From: Alphaproteobacteria bacterium
GTDB lineage: Bacteria; Pseudomonadota; Alphaproteobacteria; Micropepsales; Micropepsaceae
Direction: 5' to 3'
Assembly (NCBI GenBank): GCA_023259375.1
Contig: JAHFQC010000012.1
Coordinates: 1-53,300, forward strand
Length of the DNA: 53,300 nt
The translations under genes were made by a program, and so were the position numbers. Of this stretch, positions 23,307-33,157 are shown piece after piece. Every line of letters begins with the position of its first letter. Position 1 is the first letter of the stretch. The notes below the pieces were generated by a model. It saw only the letters and a list, made by a program, of their open reading frames with translations, did not search any database and had not been told where the DNA came from.

Positions 23307-24914
23307 TCAGCGTTTGCGGGGAATGGAAAACCGCTCGATCTTCGGCGGCGTGCGTTTGCTGTCGGCGACGCGCCGCGGCGCTGCATTGCTGACGATCGGT
23401 GTGCCCGGAATCCGGCAGACGAAGCTTGAGGCCTGATCGGTCGGGCCTGAGCCCCGATAGACCGCCACTTTCGGTTCGGCGCACAAAGGCCGCGTCATGC
23501 CGATCGCACCGTCCTTGTCGGTATGGTAGCCGGTGATCTCGTCCGGCGCCTCGCCGCCTTCCACCCACGACACGATGGCGGCATTGGAATCGAGGCCGTT
23601 CGGTCCTTCGCCGCCGCCGCAGTGGCCCATCGACGGGACCATGAAGAGATGCACGAACTTGTCGGCGTCTGGAGTCTTGGCTTCGACCGCATGGTAGTAA
23701 TCAAGCGTGTTGTAAGGCGACAGAAGTCCGTCGGCCCAGCCGTGATACATCAGAAGCTTGCCGCCATGCGCCTTGAAGGCGGAGAGATCGGGGTTGGTGG
23801 CATTCATCATACCGCCCAGTTCCTTGTCGATCGGCGCCATATCGCGATCGGGATCGTAGCGGGCGACGGTCCAAGCCGGTTTCTGCTTCAGCGCTTGGAT
23901 CATCATCGAATCCTTGAACGGGTCGTGCCCCGGCGCGATCGAATGCGGTCCGAACGCCGAAGCGACGCCGAGCGGCAGGCCGGGATAAAGCTTCAGGCCT
24001 CGCGGGGTCGTTTGCGGTCCGTACAAGGTCTGTGCCCGGGCGATTTGCGCCCGCGTCAGGCAATCCGGCTTGTCGCCCGCCTTGCACAGAAGCTTCGACC
24101 AGTCGAACTTGCAGCTCCTGGGATCGGTGATGAAGCCGTCCTTGACGCCGTCGCCGGGATCGCACTGGGCGACCATCGCTTTGGCCATGAACGACAGCTT
24201 GGCCGGGGTCAGATCGCCTTTCGGCGTCCGCCGCGCCTGCCATGCCTGGACGAAACCGAGCGACTGCAGCCGTACGAAATTGATCGCCGGTGCCCCGGCG
24301 ATGATGCCATCGTAGTCTTCGGGATAACGCTGCGCTTCCGACAGCGCCTGCCAGCCGCCCGAGGAGCAGCCGGTGAAATAGTTCTTCTTCGACTCGCGGC
24401 CGTAATAGGCGGTGATGATCTTCTTGGCGTTGACCGCCATCAGGTGATGGGCGCGATACGCGAAATTCTCGACCCGCTCGGGATGACCGGCGACCCAGTT
24501 GGTGTCGAAGAACCCTTCCTGGGTTTCGTGGCCGGTGTCGGTCGAAGCGGTGGCGAAGCCTTCCCGCACCGCTTGCGCCATGGCGGGATAATTGATCGCG
24601 CCCGTCAGGCCGCCGTTGCCGACGCCCTCAAAGCGATGATTCCAGATGTCGGGCAGCCAGATCTCGACCCTGATGTCCTTGTCGATGGTCAGCGCCACCC
24701 GGCAGAACGAAGCATGCGATTCCGCGGCGGGCTTGAAGCCGGCATTGAACGGCGACTTGGGAAAGGCCCATCCGGGCGCCACGTGCTCGGCCGCGGTGAT
24801 CTTGACGGCGTCGAACTTGAGTTCGGTCAGCGCCCTGCAGGTCGCCGGCGTGCCTTGCGCAAAGGCGGCCGCCCCCAAGGCGGCAAAAACCAACACCCCC
24901 GCACAGACACGCAT
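23307..24914 (-). CDS. Tannase/feruloyl esterase family secreted hydrolase
   Basis: The 535-residue protein has a signal peptide (MRVCAGVLVFAALGAAAFAQ). Tannase-family markers are IEIWLP-like VEIWLPDIWNHRFEGVGNGG, the nucleophile elbow YFTGCSSGGWQALSEAQRYP, DYDGIIAGAPAINFVRLQ and the His region MVPSMGHCGGGEGPN. Cysteines flank the Ser and His (GCSSGG and GHCGG), as in fungal feruloyl esterases where they link the triad. It should hydrolyse ester bonds of plant aromatic acids in the periplasm or outside. It stands alone, with an inverted repeat upstream. Confidence 0.88.
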   Translation of the reverse strand: MRVCAGVLVFAALGAAAFAQGTPATCRALTELKFDAVKITAAEHVAPGWAFPKSPFNAGFKPAAESHASFCRVALTIDKDIRVEIWLPDIWNHRFEGVGNGGLTGAINYPAMAQAVREGFATASTDTGHETQEGFFDTNWVAGHPERVENFAYRAHHLMAVNAKKIITAYYGRESKKNYFTGCSSGGWQALSEAQRYPEDYDGIIAGAPAINFVRLQSLGFVQAWQARRTPKGDLTPAKLSFMAKAMVAQCDPGDGVKDGFITDPRSCKFDWSKLLCKAGDKPDCLTRAQIARAQTLYGPQTTPRGLKLYPGLPLGVASAFGPHSIAPGHDPFKDSMMIQALKQKPAWTVARYDPDRDMAPIDKELGGMMNATNPDLSAFKAHGGKLLMYHGWADGLLSPYNTLDYYHAVEAKTPDADKFVHLFMVPSMGHCGGGEGPNGLDSNAAIVSWVEGGEAPDEITGYHTDKDGAIGMTRPLCAEPKVAVYRGSGPTDQASSFVCRIPGTPIVSNAAPRRVADSKRTPPKIERFSIPRKR

Positions 24915-28186: not shown

Positions 28187-28228
28187 GCGCAACCCGAAAA
28201 GTGTTTGCGGTTTTCGGACCAGTTGCGC
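28187..28228. repeat. Nested palindromic intergenic repeat, copy 3
   Basis: The outer arms GCGCAAC (28187-28193) and GTTGCGC (28222-28228) enclose CCGAAAA (28194-28200) and TTTTCGG (28211-28217). It begins at the base after the dnaX stop. It sits in the dnaX-recR gap, where ybaB is normally found. Confidence 0.7.
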
Positions 28229-28284
28229 GCTTAACAAAAGATGCTGGATCACTATCCGGCATCGCAGCTGCGGATAGTGATTCA

Positions 28285-28881
28285 GTGTCTACCATCGGCC
28301 CCGAAATCGAACGGCTGATCCAACTCCTGGCGAAGCTGCCGGGGCTGGGACCGCGCTCGGCGCGCCGTGCCGCGCTTGATCTTTTGAAGAAGCGCGAAGT
28401 CTTGATGGAGCCGCTGGCACTCGCTCTTACGGACGCTGCGCGTGCGATAAAAACCTGCGAGATTTGCGGCAACCTCGATACCGCCAGTCCGTGTGCGCTG
28501 TGCTGCGATCCGCGCCGCGAATCCCGCGTCTTGTGTGTGGTCGAAGATGTTGCCGATTTGTGGGCGCTGGAACGGGCGGGCGTGTTCAAGGGCCGCTATC
28601 ACGTGCTCGGCGGCGCCCTGTCGGCACTCGACGGCATTACGCCGGAACGGCTGAACGTCGGTTCGCTGATCGATCGCGCCAAACAAGGCGTCGAGGAAAT
28701 CATCCTCGCCATGAATGCGACGGTCGAAGGCCAGACCACGGCGCATTATCTGCTCGACGCGCTGGCCGATACCAACGTCAAAGTCACCCGGCTGGCGCAT
28801 GGCGTGCCGGTCGGCGGCGAACTCGATTATCTCGATGAAGGAACGCTGTCGGCCGCCTTCAAGGCGCGCCGCTCGCTGTAA
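28285..28881 (+). CDS. recR: Recombination mediator protein RecR
   Basis: The protein has 198 residues if begun at GTG 28285 (then [20 protein letters not shown]), which fits RecR length and start; the open frame runs 28 codons further up with no family similarity. Features are a helix-hairpin-helix ([20 protein letters not shown]), a four-cysteine zinc finger (CEICGNLD ... CALCCD), a Toprim region ([33 protein letters not shown]) and the Walker-like C-terminus [20 protein letters not shown]. With RecO it loads RecA at gaps. It lies 98 bases after dnaX. Confidence 0.94.
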
Positions 28882-28891
28882 GGGGATGCGC

Positions 28892-29935
28892 ATGCGCTGG
28901 TACGGTCTTGTCGGACTTCTGTTGATCGCTCCGGCCTCTGCGGAATTTTCCGACAGCGACGCCGCCGCGATGGCCGTCGCCTCTCCAGCGGTGACGCAGT
29001 CACTCAAAACCATCGAAACGACGATCGCCGTACTGCCTGACGGCCTGCGTGCACCGACCCGTGACGGATTGCTGGTGACCGACACCTGCATCGCCTACCG
29101 CAAGGCCGAAACCGACGCGACGCGCCGTGCCGTAGTGGACGAACTGGTACGTCAGGGTTTGGTGACCGACGCGGCCGCGGCGACGCGCAGTCTCTATGGC
29201 TATCCGGTCAAGACCGACGGTACTTGCGTGCACACTGCGGCGCCGTTTCTCGCAACGCCGGGCAGCGAAGAAGACAGCCATCATTCCTGGCCCGGCGGAT
29301 TGGCCGATCACATCGCGTTCAATCTCCACGTCGCCCACGATTTGGCGGCACGCTACGGCGCCGTCACCGGCAACCCGAACGCCTACGACCGTGGCACGCT
29401 CGATGCGGCAGTGCTGTGGCACGATTGGGCCAAGCGGCTGGTGCTGCATTGGAGCGACAAGGGCGTCGTCTCCTATGAATCGACCATCGGCGGAACCTCG
29501 TCGCATCATGTGATCGGGCTTGCCGAAGCGATGGCGCGCGGGCTTCCCGCGGAAGAGGTGATGGTCCAGGTTTGCGCGCATCAGGCGCCGTCGAACGATC
29601 ATGATGCCAAAGTCATCGGCTGGATCCGCGCCGCCGCGATCATCACCCGCATCGATCCGGTCGCGCGGGGCTATTTGAAATCCGCTTCCGGCGGCTACAC
29701 GCTCACCGTCCGTCCCGAGTGCCGCATCCACAATCTGTCGGATGGCAACTGGGTTTATGCCGTTCCGGCGGCGCAGCATGCCAAGGCCATCATCGCGCGC
29801 CTTGCGCCGCAAGCCGGTCACAAGGACGACCGCCACTTTCTGGAACAAGCGCTCAGTTATTACGGCGGCGAACGCTTCGACCTTTTGAGCGACGCCGAAG
29901 CCCTCAAACTTCTGCGGGAATTGCCGAAGAAATAA
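28892..29935 (+). CDS. Secreted HD-superfamily protein of unknown function
   Basis: The protein has 347 residues. The start is ATG 28892, six bases after AGGGG; the ATG at 28886 abuts that ribosome site and a longer frame into recR is spurious. A short signal peptide (MRWYGLVGLLLIAPASA) suggests export. The central region has the ordered metal ligands of an HD phosphohydrolase: His140 (WPGGLADH), His177-Asp178 (LWHDWAKRL), His205/206 (GTSSHHVIG), His230 (CAHQAP) and Asp255 (TRID). Two cysteines (TDTC, TC) lie before the domain. HD enzymes usually act on cytoplasmic nucleotides, so an exported one is notable; substrate unknown. It lies 10 bases after recR and should be co-expressed. Confidence 0.8.
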   Translation: MRWYGLVGLLLIAPASAEFSDSDAAAMAVASPAVTQSLKTIETTIAVLPDGLRAPTRDGLLVTDTCIAYRKAETDATRRAVVDELVRQGLVTDAAAATRSLYGYPVKTDGTCVHTAAPFLATPGSEEDSHHSWPGGLADHIAFNLHVAHDLAARYGAVTGNPNAYDRGTLDAAVLWHDWAKRLVLHWSDKGVVSYESTIGGTSSHHVIGLAEAMARGLPAEEVMVQVCAHQAPSNDHDAKVIGWIRAAAIITRIDPVARGYLKSASGGYTLTVRPECRIHNLSDGNWVYAVPAAQHAKAIIARLAPQAGHKDDRHFLEQALSYYGGERFDLLSDAEALKLLRELPKK

Positions 29936-29974: not shown

Positions 29975-31369
29975 TCAGCCTTCTGCTTCCGTCTCGTTCT
30001 CGGCAAGCCCGAGCAGAGCTTGCGCTTCGCTGCCCGGCATGCCTTCCACTTCGCGCAATTTGCGGCTCATCACATTGGTTCTTGTGCCAAGCCGGTCGAC
30101 GGTGTTGGTGGCAGCGTTGAGCTGCTTTTTCAGCGTCTCGACCACTTTGCCGTGGCTGGCAAATTCGGTCTGCACAGCGCCCAGAAGCTTCCACACTTCG
30201 CCCGAGCGCGCCTGCAGTGCTTGAGTCCGGAACCCCATGGCGAAGGCCGACAGCAGCGCAGAAAGTGTCGTGGGACCGGCAATGGTGACGTGGAAGTCGC
30301 GCTGGATTAATTCGATCAGGCCCTGCCGGCGCGCCATTTCGGCAAACAGCCCTTCGGTCGGCAGGAAGAGAATGCCGTAATCGGTGGTGTGGGGCGGGCA
30401 GATGTATTTGTCGTGAATGTCCTTGGCGCAGGCTTTGACGCGCAGTTCCAGGGCGTCGCCGGCCACTTTCACTGCTTCGATATCGCCGCGCTCGGAGGCG
30501 TCTACCAAGCGCAGATAGTCCTCCTGCGGGAACTTGGAGTCGATCGGCATCAGGATTTCGTCGTTGGCGTCGCGCCCCGGCAGGCGGATGGCGAATTCGA
30601 CCCGCTCCTTCGAGTCGGGTTTGATCAGCGTGTTGGTGGCGTATTGGCTGGGCACCAGGAATTGATCGAGCAGCATGCCGAGCTGCACTTCGCCCAAGAT
30701 GCCGCGCGTCTTGACGTTCGACAGCACTTTTTTTAGATCGCCGACGCCGGTCGCCAGGGTTTGCATCTCGCCAAGGCCCTGATGCACGCGCTCAAGCTGT
30801 TCGGTCACGGTGCGGAACGATTCGCCGAGGCGCTTTTCGAGTTCGGTCTGCAGTTTTTCGTCGACGGTCCGGCGCATCTCGTCGAGCTTCTCGGAATTTT
30901 CGCGGCGCAGCGCATCGAGGCGTCCTTCGACCGTCTGGCGCAGCGCTTCGGCCGCCGCCGCCTGTTTCTCGGTGAGCGCCTTCAGTTCCGTCACCACCGT
31001 ATCAAGGCGTTCCTTCTGATGCTCGCCGAGGCCTTTGAGGTTGGCGGTCAGCATCTCGGTGGTCTGGGCGAAACTGGCGGCGAGGGCTTCGCGGGTGTCG
31101 CGCGCGGCATTCATCTGCTGGCTCGCGGCGGTGTCGAGCTTGGCTTCGGTCGCGGTCTGAAAATCCTTGATCAGGCCGCGGATTTCTTCACGCGAGGCGC
31201 GCGCTTGTTCGGCGCTGTCGGCGCGGATGCGGTCGGCTTCGGTACGCACCGTTGCCGCGATGGTGTCGTCCGGCTTGGGTTTGCGGACGAGAACAACCAG
31301 AGCGGCCGCCGCCGCCACCAAAGCGACGCCGAGCGTCAGAACCTGCAACATCAATGAAAGCGAATCCAT
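29975..31369 (-). CDS. rmuC: RmuC family DNA recombination protein
   Basis: The 464-residue protein has an N-terminal membrane helix (LMLQVLTLGVALVAAAAALV), about 170 residues of coiled coil (for example LTEKQAAAAEALRQTVEGRL), and the RmuC nuclease-like domain: VLSNVKTRGILGEVQLGMLL, VEFAIRLPGRDANDEILMPI, DSKFPQEDYLRLVDA and YGILFLPTEGLFAEMARRQG. The family limits recombination between short inverted repeats. It is convergent with the HD gene. The fucosidase gene lies 45 bases downstream on the same strand. Confidence 0.94.
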   Translation of the reverse strand: MDSLSLMLQVLTLGVALVAAAAALVVLVRKPKPDDTIAATVRTEADRIRADSAEQARASREEIRGLIKDFQTATEAKLDTAASQQMNAARDTREALAASFAQTTEMLTANLKGLGEHQKERLDTVVTELKALTEKQAAAAEALRQTVEGRLDALRRENSEKLDEMRRTVDEKLQTELEKRLGESFRTVTEQLERVHQGLGEMQTLATGVGDLKKVLSNVKTRGILGEVQLGMLLDQFLVPSQYATNTLIKPDSKERVEFAIRLPGRDANDEILMPIDSKFPQEDYLRLVDASERGDIEAVKVAGDALELRVKACAKDIHDKYICPPHTTDYGILFLPTEGLFAEMARRQGLIELIQRDFHVTIAGPTTLSALLSAFAMGFRTQALQARSGEVWKLLGAVQTEFASHGKVVETLKKQLNAATNTVDRLGTRTNVMSRKLREVEGMPGSEAQALLGLAENETEAEG

Positions 31370-31414: not shown

Positions 31415-33046
31415 TTATGCGATCCCCTTGCCGCGGATCTTCAGAGCGACGCCGAAATCATGGTTGGCCGCGGCAGGGATGCTGACCACCAGTCCGGCGC
31501 CGGTTTTGCGGAAGGAAAGCGGTGCCGAAGAACCAACCATCTCCACACGTTCGACCGCGGCGCCCTTGAGCGCGGCGATAGTCACCGTGTCCCCCGGCTT
31601 GCCAAGGGTGATCGCATAAAGCGCGCCCGCTTTGGTGGTGAAGCGGATATCGGCGGCCGAGAACGAGTTCAGTTTGCCTTCGCCGAAGGCGCCGCCGCCG
31701 ACTTGGGTCGGACCTTCGCCCGCCACTTTCCATGGCCGCGTGCCGTAGATCGCCTCCGAGAACCGGCCCATCCAGCCGGCAACGCCTTCGACGATGGCGG
31801 TTTCCTTTTCGTCGATGGTGCCGTCGCGCCGCACCGGCACGCTGAGCAGCAGATTGCCATTCTTGGCAACGATATCGCAGAGGAAATGCACCACCAGATC
31901 GGCGCTCTTGTAGCCGTTCTTCTCGTAGAGCGGGCGGCTGTAATGCCAGTCGCCGATGCAGGTGTCGGTCTGCCAGGGATGGGCTGCGATCTCGCCATGC
32001 AAGCCGCGTTCGGTATCTTCGACCAGAGCGGCGCGGCGTTCTTCCGGCAGGAATTTGGCGTTGATCACCACGTCCGGCTGGCCGTGCCATTTCACCGCGG
32101 AATTGTAGTAGTGGGCGGCGATGTCGAGCCCCGCCTGGCCGAGCGGCAGTCCGGTGTTGTCGAAATAGAGCAGATCGGGCTGATAGGAATCGATCAGATC
32201 CTTGCAGCGCAGGAACCAGCGCCGCGTGAACGCGGGATTGGCGGCGGGCGGGTTTTCGTCCCAGACGCGGTCATGGGCTTCATGCCATTGTTGCGCCGCC
32301 TTCATGTCGGTGAAGCCGTCGGGCAGCGGCATCACACGGCCGCAGTACAGATCCTGCGGATCGAGGCCTTCCCACCATTTGCCTTTGCCGTCGGCCTTGG
32401 TGAGCTTGAAGGCGTCATAGCGCTGACCGCGGCGCGGCCCTTCGGGATCGTAGCCGTAAGCGACCTGGAACCAGTGCCAGGCATGCGCCGAGTGGTTGGA
32501 GACGCCGAACTTCAGGCCGCGCGCCCGCGCCGCTTTAGCCCACATCCCGATCAGATCGCGCTTGGGTCCGACGCGGGTGGCGTTCCAGTCGTGGAACTTG
32601 GAGGCATAGGTGTCGAAATTGTCGTGGTGGTTGGCGAGCGCCACGAAGTATTTCGCGCCGGCCTTGGCATAGAGATCGAGCAAGGCGTCGGGATCGAATT
32701 TTTCCGCCGTCCACGAGCCGATCACGTCGATAAAGCCGCTGTCGGCGGGATGGCCGTAATGCGTCAGGTGGTGTTGATATTGAGGCTGCTCCTGCAGATA
32801 CATGTTGCGGGCATACCAGTCGCCATCTTCGGCGGCGCATTGCGGACCCCAATGGGCCCAGATGCCGAATTTGGCGTCACGAAACCACTCGGGCGCCTTG
32901 TAGCCGGCGATCAGCGAATTCCACTCCGCCGCGAACGGACCGGGAGTACCCTCCGCCAGTCCCGCGGCGTACGCGCTTTTCGGCAGTCCTGCCGCCAAGC
33001 CGAGGCTGGCAGCGGCCTGAAACAGCCGCCGTTTGCTGATGTCCAT
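31415..33046 (-). CDS. Alpha-L-fucosidase, glycoside hydrolase family 29
   Basis: The protein has 543 residues from the ATG at 33046, which has GGAGG five bases upstream; GTG 33061 is less likely. The leader DISKRRLFQAAASLGLAAGL resembles a twin-arginine (Tat) signal. The GH29 barrel shows WFRDAKFGIWAHWGPQCAAE, NHHDNFDTYASKFHDWNATR, KRDLIGMWAKAARARGLKFG and LLYFDNTGLPLG, where the Asp is the expected nucleophile. A C-terminal beta domain follows. It should release fucose from glycans in the periplasm. No sugar transporter or fucose pathway is nearby. Confidence 0.9.
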   Translation of the reverse strand: MDISKRRLFQAAASLGLAAGLPKSAYAAGLAEGTPGPFAAEWNSLIAGYKAPEWFRDAKFGIWAHWGPQCAAEDGDWYARNMYLQEQPQYQHHLTHYGHPADSGFIDVIGSWTAEKFDPDALLDLYAKAGAKYFVALANHHDNFDTYASKFHDWNATRVGPKRDLIGMWAKAARARGLKFGVSNHSAHAWHWFQVAYGYDPEGPRRGQRYDAFKLTKADGKGKWWEGLDPQDLYCGRVMPLPDGFTDMKAAQQWHEAHDRVWDENPPAANPAFTRRWFLRCKDLIDSYQPDLLYFDNTGLPLGQAGLDIAAHYYNSAVKWHGQPDVVINAKFLPEERRAALVEDTERGLHGEIAAHPWQTDTCIGDWHYSRPLYEKNGYKSADLVVHFLCDIVAKNGNLLLSVPVRRDGTIDEKETAIVEGVAGWMGRFSEAIYGTRPWKVAGEGPTQVGGGAFGEGKLNSFSAADIRFTTKAGALYAITLGKPGDTVTIAALKGAAVERVEMVGSSAPLSFRKTGAGLVVSIPAAANHDFGVALKIRGKGIA

Positions 33047-33157
33047 GATGTCCTCCCGCACGGAATGGTTTTCGTAATTCTCCTATTTGTATGACAATAA
33101 CGCAAGCGCGTTTCGCCCTCACTTGACCCATGCAAACCCCGCGCTTATCTGACGGCC

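Follow-up and report, generated by a model that had tools for sequence, protein, structure and literature searches.

Within the window, the 53,300-nucleotide stretch of DNA analyzed here, a 347-amino-acid protein with a predicted export signal and the metal-ligand pattern of an HD-domain phosphohydrolase is encoded on the forward strand directly downstream of recR. The features of the locus are as follows.

28288–28881, forward strand: recR, the upstream neighbor; a housekeeping gene outside the proposed function
28880–28885, forward strand: AAGGGG, which resembles a ribosome-binding site; it overlaps the stop codon of recR and is the same in R. electricum
28892–29935, forward strand: gene of the predicted exported HD-domain protein (347 aa), from reading of the open reading frame and its relatives
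28892–28942, forward strand: predicted Sec leader, residues 1–17, with cleavage probably after Ala-Ser-Ala
29087–29089, forward strand: Cys66, candidate disulfide partner of Cys112
29225–29227, forward strand: Cys112
29279–29311, forward strand: HHSWPGGLADH motif, from His130/His131 to the candidate metal ligand His140; aligns with HHEF..GLAYH of YhaM
29420–29434, forward strand: HDWAK motif, His177-Asp178 to Lys181; aligns with HDLGK of YhaM
29504–29509, forward strand: His205-His206
29579–29581, forward strand: His230
29654–29656, forward strand: Asp255, the residue first named as the last ligand
29717–29743, forward strand: Glu276 to Asp284, more likely than Asp255 to supply the last acidic ligand
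29975–31369, reverse strand: convergent gene downstream of the HD gene, which we take to be rmuC-like

The recR gene ended at 28881 and the HD gene began with ATG at 28892, leaving the 10-base gap of the original prediction, and, in place of the ribosome-binding site claimed for the HD gene, a sequence resembling one, AAGGGG, lay 6 bases ahead of its ATG. The R. electricum orthologue of the HD protein was 89% identical, and its locus kept the same ATG, the AAGGGG and the recR neighbor. Because ATG 28892 was conserved in R. electricum, unlike the second in-frame ATG of the window at 28886, which was absent there, the start codon assignment was considered sound. Comparison of the two HD genes gave a dN of 0.060 and a dS of 0.450, which indicated purifying selection on the HD gene. 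Among other features of the window, the gap between dnaX and recR (28187–28290) was about 100 bases long and contained no ybaB-like gene; it held a GCGCAACCCGAAAAGTG element, of which the window had one exact copy and one copy with three mismatches (0.28 expected). An exported protein that was tannase-like by eye was encoded at 23307–24914, and a similar one in L033 (8200–9831) lay two genes from the HD gene, which may be chance. Another exported protein, with a twin-arginine-like start and alpha-L-fucosidase-like by eye, was encoded at 31415–33061.

The signal peptide that had been predicted for the HD protein was supported by a Sec-type leader in the window protein and by leaders in its homologues. 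Leaders were measured as the best mean hydropathy over 11 residues near the protein start, a measure devised for this analysis, with five cytoplasmic proteins from the window as controls. The values were 2.28–3.47 in 14 of 16 aligned relatives versus 0.21–1.85 in the controls; a Sec-like leader was assigned to 14 relatives, and the leader of L012 had no good −3/−1 site. One more relative (L011) had an RRQFLQ motif that was Tat-like by eye, with a hydropathy of 1.37, inside the control range; the NCBIfam Tat signal model matched one of the 16 relatives, at an E-value of 0.12. A Sec or Tat leader was thus retained among the homologues, as judged by hydropathy and, for L011, by the RR motif alone. 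The only relative that started without a leader, L037, also lacked the HD motif, reading HE in place of HD, and had lost His130, His131, His140 and Asp178. Since the leader and the ligand set recurred across families, chance was excluded, and export of the HD protein is well supported as a prediction from these sequences. The leaderless HE relative (L037, 5353–6543) was located among ABC-transporter- and malic-enzyme-like genes and perhaps represents a separate cytoplasmic subfamily.

Conservation of the putative metal site was counted in the alignment of 16 relatives, using window numbering. The residues proposed as ligands, His140, His177-Asp178, His205/His206, His230 and Asp255, were all present at their predicted positions in the window protein. 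His177, Lys181, His205, His230, Glu276 and Asp284 were each found in all 16 relatives, and His130, His131, His140 and Asp178 in 15 each. Asp255 was Asp in 12 relatives, Ala in three and Glu in one, indicating that the fixed acidic ligand is probably another residue, and the original assignment of this residue was thereby weakened; with Ala or Glu in 4 of 16 relatives, we no longer treat it as fixed. The ligand order H…HD…H…H…acidic was therefore found, with an uncertain last acidic position (Asp284 and Glu276, 16/16; Asp255, 12/16), for which Asp284 or Glu276 most likely serves, going by their conservation. Cys66 and Cys112 co-occurred in 13 of the 16 relatives, and a disulfide between them probably braces the protein.

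We compared the protein with family models and solved structures. The window protein was unmatched by Pfam at cut-off, the OB family PF25049 scoring 11.7 bits versus a cut-off of 29.3, and it was not recognized by the HD model PF01966. In NCBIfam, the YhaM model (NF010007) gave an E-value of 0.025 and 13.7 bits versus a cut-off of 460, so the protein fell far short of the YhaM cut-off. When the 16 relatives were searched, the best Pfam match was to HD (PF01966; E = 0.0032, in one member); the Pfam OB families gave a best E-value of 0.086, in two members, with none at cut-off, and the NCBIfam YhaM model matched 7 of 16 relatives at E-values up to 1, the best being 1.4e-6. The HD protein is a member of a small family outside the Pfam and NCBIfam models searched. 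Against solved structures, a profile of the 16 relatives matched YhaM (PDB ID: 9h3f) with an E-value of 2.5e-4, the next match being at 0.22, and the profile–YhaM alignment spanned the HH..GGL..H and HD..K motifs over about 70 residues.

Structures of the window protein and of a mature Brevundimonas relative were modeled with AlphaFold2 using five sequences, giving pLDDT values of 69.7 and 72.3, respectively; both models were weakest at the HH motif and around Asp284, and in the window model pLDDT fell below 50 at residues 124–131 and 279–292. In VIA searches, YhaM ranked first for both models, with a Z-score of 9.2 (rmsd 4.9, 185 residues aligned; next entry, Z = 5.4) for the window model and 10.6 (rmsd 3.3, 152 residues aligned; next entry, Z = 5.1) for the Brevundimonas model. 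The lower entries included many dGTPases and PDEs, more so for the window model. With Foldseek, neither model had a match at an E-value of 0.001 or lower; YhaM was first for the window model (E = 0.17), and was not among the best 50 of 53 matches for the Brevundimonas model. The N-terminal part was modeled as helices with modest confidence in both. Although the models were of modest quality, the HD fold, which had been predicted from the ligand pattern, is well supported, in that YhaM was matched by the family profile and stood first in VIA for both models. The ligand order H-HD-H-H-acid is that of HD superfamily phosphohydrolases (PF01966; dGTPases, class I PDEs), from which the protein differs in its predicted export and in escaping recognition by PF01966.

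YhaM shares with the HD protein the HH..(P)GGL..H motif followed by HDxxK, and is the nearest characterized relative both by profile and by fold. According to the available text of PMC11347170, YhaM trims RNA in a Mn- or Co-dependent manner and requires His192/Asp193, and all YhaM homologues have an OB fold. Because the activity of YhaM is Mn- or Co-dependent RNA trimming, scavenging of nucleic acids or oligonucleotides is a narrower version of the organic-phosphate scavenging proposed below: the protein would be a periplasmic 3′–5′ exonuclease of the YhaM kind degrading extracellular RNA or single-stranded DNA, with receptors importing the products. The requirement for the metal and for His192/Asp193 (PMC11347170, in the part available) agrees with this reading. 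However, Pfam found no OB fold at cut-off in the HD protein, although this fold is common to the YhaM homologues described, and the profile alignment with YhaM covered only about 70 residues. YhaM is cytoplasmic with an N-terminal OB fold, again according to the part of PMC11347170 available, whereas the HD protein has a leader and a helical N-terminal part as modeled. We regard the exonuclease as the less probable, narrower form, with a chance that is low yet worth keeping in mind.

MIOX and PhnZ are HD-fold oxygenases of the mixed-valence di-iron kind. A periplasmic enzyme of this kind, cleaving an imported ligand such as inositol or a phosphonate, would fit the H-HD-H-H-D order of a two-metal site, and PhnZ was present in the VIA list of the window model (Z = 4.0, rank 33), being missing from the entries listed for the Brevundimonas model. 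Nevertheless, a Z-score of 4.0 was no better than that of many hydrolases listed and YhaM was far ahead, and none of the genes named at the loci read was a phosphonate gene, making an oxygenase improbable.

The distribution of the family was surveyed at several taxonomic levels. With the window protein as the query, the single match among 41 near genomes was in its own genome. In the class, 5 of 385 genomes matched, including two spurious ones, and in the phylum a profile search matched 3 of 398, one of them YhaM-like; because only 5 or 6 first-look candidates were scored per genome in these searches, as in those of the Novosphingobium family and of the Brevundimonas receptors, absences in them are soft. 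The two spurious matches in the class were rejected as relatives, G344 being a 72-residue stretch in the wrong kind of open reading frame and G326 a DNA gyrase/topoisomerase-like frame; G421 of the phylum search was rejected because its frame was YhaM-like. Profile searches matched 3 of 69 genomes in the window's genus, 5 of 98 in the genus of G503 (including G853, with broken remnants), 2 of 39 in the family of G379 and 2 of 347, under the soft scoring noted above, in the family of the Novosphingobium. In Brevundimonas, where up to 15 candidates were scored per genome for the HD gene, 4 of 131 genomes matched, one through a weak partial match (G972, E = 8e-6), and the HD gene was complete in three. 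The remnants in G853 lay at about 4300–4500 of L041, where the HD-family gene was present only in broken form. No match to the HD protein was found in the phages or viral contigs searched, and plasmid records gave two distant matches (32% identity), from Burkholderia arboris and Nostoc; the window gene was therefore rejected as phage or plasmid cargo. In a tree of 17 proteins, the window protein grouped with that of R. electricum (support 100/100), then with that of G769 (88/89) and then with the five receptor-linked proteins described below (85/86), the latter two supports being moderate.

The question raised by the original prediction, whether homologues also adjoin recR, was answered in the negative. 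A recR match was found in 62 of 69 genomes of the genus, and 30 recR loci were read, several of which ended at contig edges; dnaX adjoined recR in most of them. The HD gene followed recR in two of the 30, in its own genome and at the R. electricum locus (G768), and tblastn with eight family proteins at an E-value of 0.01 detected no trace of the HD gene at the other 28. These two species pair as sisters in the tree of the family, and the recR link is local to them; a functional link of the HD gene with recR was accordingly rejected on these counts. An enzyme of repair or of the nucleotide pool linked to recR, for which the leader would not be real, could account for the 10-base spacing in two species, but leaders also occurred in relatives without a recR neighbor, and both the adjacency at only 2 of 30 loci and the tblastn result speak against it. 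We consider this explanation highly improbable.

Of the 14 core-family loci read, five were linked to receptors, two to recR and seven to neither. In the five receptor-linked genomes, belonging to two families, the HD gene lay within a cluster of ECF sigma factor, FecR and TonB-dependent receptor that also included a second receptor. The three genomes from Brevundimonas (G940, G942 and G970) had it between two TonB-dependent receptors, sharing its strand with the first and convergent to the second; the sigma/FecR pair lay beyond. The Novosphingobium (G941) and G1365, a genome from the same family, had sigma factor, FecR, receptor and HD gene in this order on one strand, the start of the HD gene touching the end of the receptor gene, and the second receptor was divergent. 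After the second receptor came an alkaline phosphatase gene in the Novosphingobium (PF00245, E = 2.6e-57) and a histidine phosphatase gene in G1365 (PF00328, E = 3.9e-22). Pfam matches established the ECF sigma factor and FecR in G970, G941 and G1365; in G940 and G942 the two were recognized by eye. The STN signaling domain scored below cut-off in one Brevundimonas receptor, and Pfam did not find it in the receptors of the members of the other two families. This receptor-cluster context of the HD gene is a new finding; a search of the literature, mostly of non-subscription journals, retrieved no exported HD family associated with TonB receptors.

Both receptors were detected in six of the 131 genomes of Brevundimonas, and all three complete HD genes were among those six; the hypergeometric probability of this co-occurrence was 5.5e-5, a value that ignores kinship of related genomes and was obtained with few receptor candidates scored. 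In the other three (G965, G1038 and G1008), the receptors were 115–133 bases apart and no HD gene was found, which indicated that the cluster does not require the HD gene and has it as an accessory. This dispensability, together with the position of the gene inside sigma/FecR/receptor clusters, would suit a regulator or binding protein that retains the HD metal site as a sensor for the receptor/FecR system. On the other hand, at least 15 of the 16 relatives retained each metal-site residue and Lys181, relatives without an adjoining receptor cluster included, and we judge a sensor to be quite improbable. In G769 a receptor pair (46–48% identical), a sigma factor and FecR (by reading) were present, unlinked to its HD gene. 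No TonB receptor/sigma/FecR/phosphatase cluster lay beside the HD gene at the window locus. No receptor closely related to the partner receptor was encoded in the window's genome (best E-value, 7.1e-14 among 36 matches) or in R. electricum (best E-value, 1.3e-15), suggesting that the window enzyme would work without such a partner in its own genome.

The original prediction took a periplasmic HD enzyme to point to an unusual substrate or to scavenging. The TonB receptors, sigma/FecR pairs and two phosphatase genes around the homologues favor this idea, which is supported in part and through the gene context of the relatives; the cluster is missing at the window locus itself. To our knowledge, two-metal HD chemistry is almost exclusively cytoplasmic. 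Phosphatase genes at two receptor clusters and the precedent in Flavobacterium described below made scavenging of organic phosphate the likeliest role. We put at about an even chance the reading that the protein is a periplasmic HD metal phosphohydrolase scavenging organic phosphate, accessory to the receptor clusters in relatives. The protein would be exported through Sec and would fold in the periplasm to an HD-domain catalytic core, with the Cys66–Cys112 disulfide probably bracing it. A two-metal-type ligand set of His140, His177-Asp178, His205 and His230 with an acidic residue, most likely Asp284 or Glu276, would hydrolyze phosphate esters or diesters, such as oligonucleotides, nucleotides or other organophosphates, and the released phosphate and the dephosphorylated compound would be taken up. 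The relatives in Brevundimonas and Sphingomonadaceae would be accessory enzymes of a surface-signaled uptake cluster built from an ECF sigma factor with FecR and one or two TonB-dependent receptors, to which two genomes add a second phosphatase, while in the window's species the HD gene would operate from its place behind recR with the uptake cluster missing. We infer metal occupancy, catalytic activity, substrate and scavenging role alike from sequence and gene context. More speculatively, and with a chance that we set clearly below even, the HD family could be the enzyme of an alphaproteobacterial phosphate utilization system, in which the receptor pair under ECF sigma/FecR surface signaling binds an organophosphate and the HD enzyme opens it, the free-standing copy beside recR serving Rhizomicrobium.

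ECF/FecR/TonB clusters serve iron and sugar uptake too, and it is possible that the cluster has such a purpose and that the HD protein has a different role. Beta-propeller phytase genes often adjoin TonB receptors. For the favored reading, organic-phosphate scavenging, two known systems offer comparison. In phosphate-starvation clusters of Flavobacterium, TonB transporters occur with regulators of the ECF sigma or FecR-like type and with a periplasmic enzyme, either PhoA or a phosphodiesterase, according to the available part of PMC8115612. The relatives' clusters resemble these phosphate utilization systems (PUS) in their TonB-type transporter and ECF sigma/FecR-like regulator and, in two of the five genomes, a phosphatase gene; in contrast to what that part of PMC8115612 describes, they are without SusD, their enzyme is of the HD type and phosphate control is a candidate property, and the window's genome is without the cluster. 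In Citromicrobium, a TonB receptor adjoining a phytase was read as serving phytate uptake in the accessible text of PMC3400609. That arrangement shares a receptor beside a phosphatase gene, whereas the enzyme there, as far as the same text goes, is a phytase, and here it is the HD protein, joined in two genomes by PhoA or a histidine phosphatase.

Work on HD phosphohydrolases has treated them as cytoplasmic enzymes that act on nucleotides, RNA and second messengers. The present family forms a conserved branch with predicted export and an intact site, tied to surface-signaled TonB receptors and outside the Pfam and NCBIfam models searched, and it points to an unrecognized form of phosphorus or nucleotide harvesting in Alphaproteobacteria of soil and water. 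The receptor and phosphatase context of the relatives makes the scavenging idea testable, and a receptor family without a known ligand gains a testable candidate ligand. Beside one Brevundimonas cluster (L048, 12543–18000), a second set of sigma factor, FecR and TonB receptor was observed, which includes an exported protein of the metallo-beta-lactamase fold.
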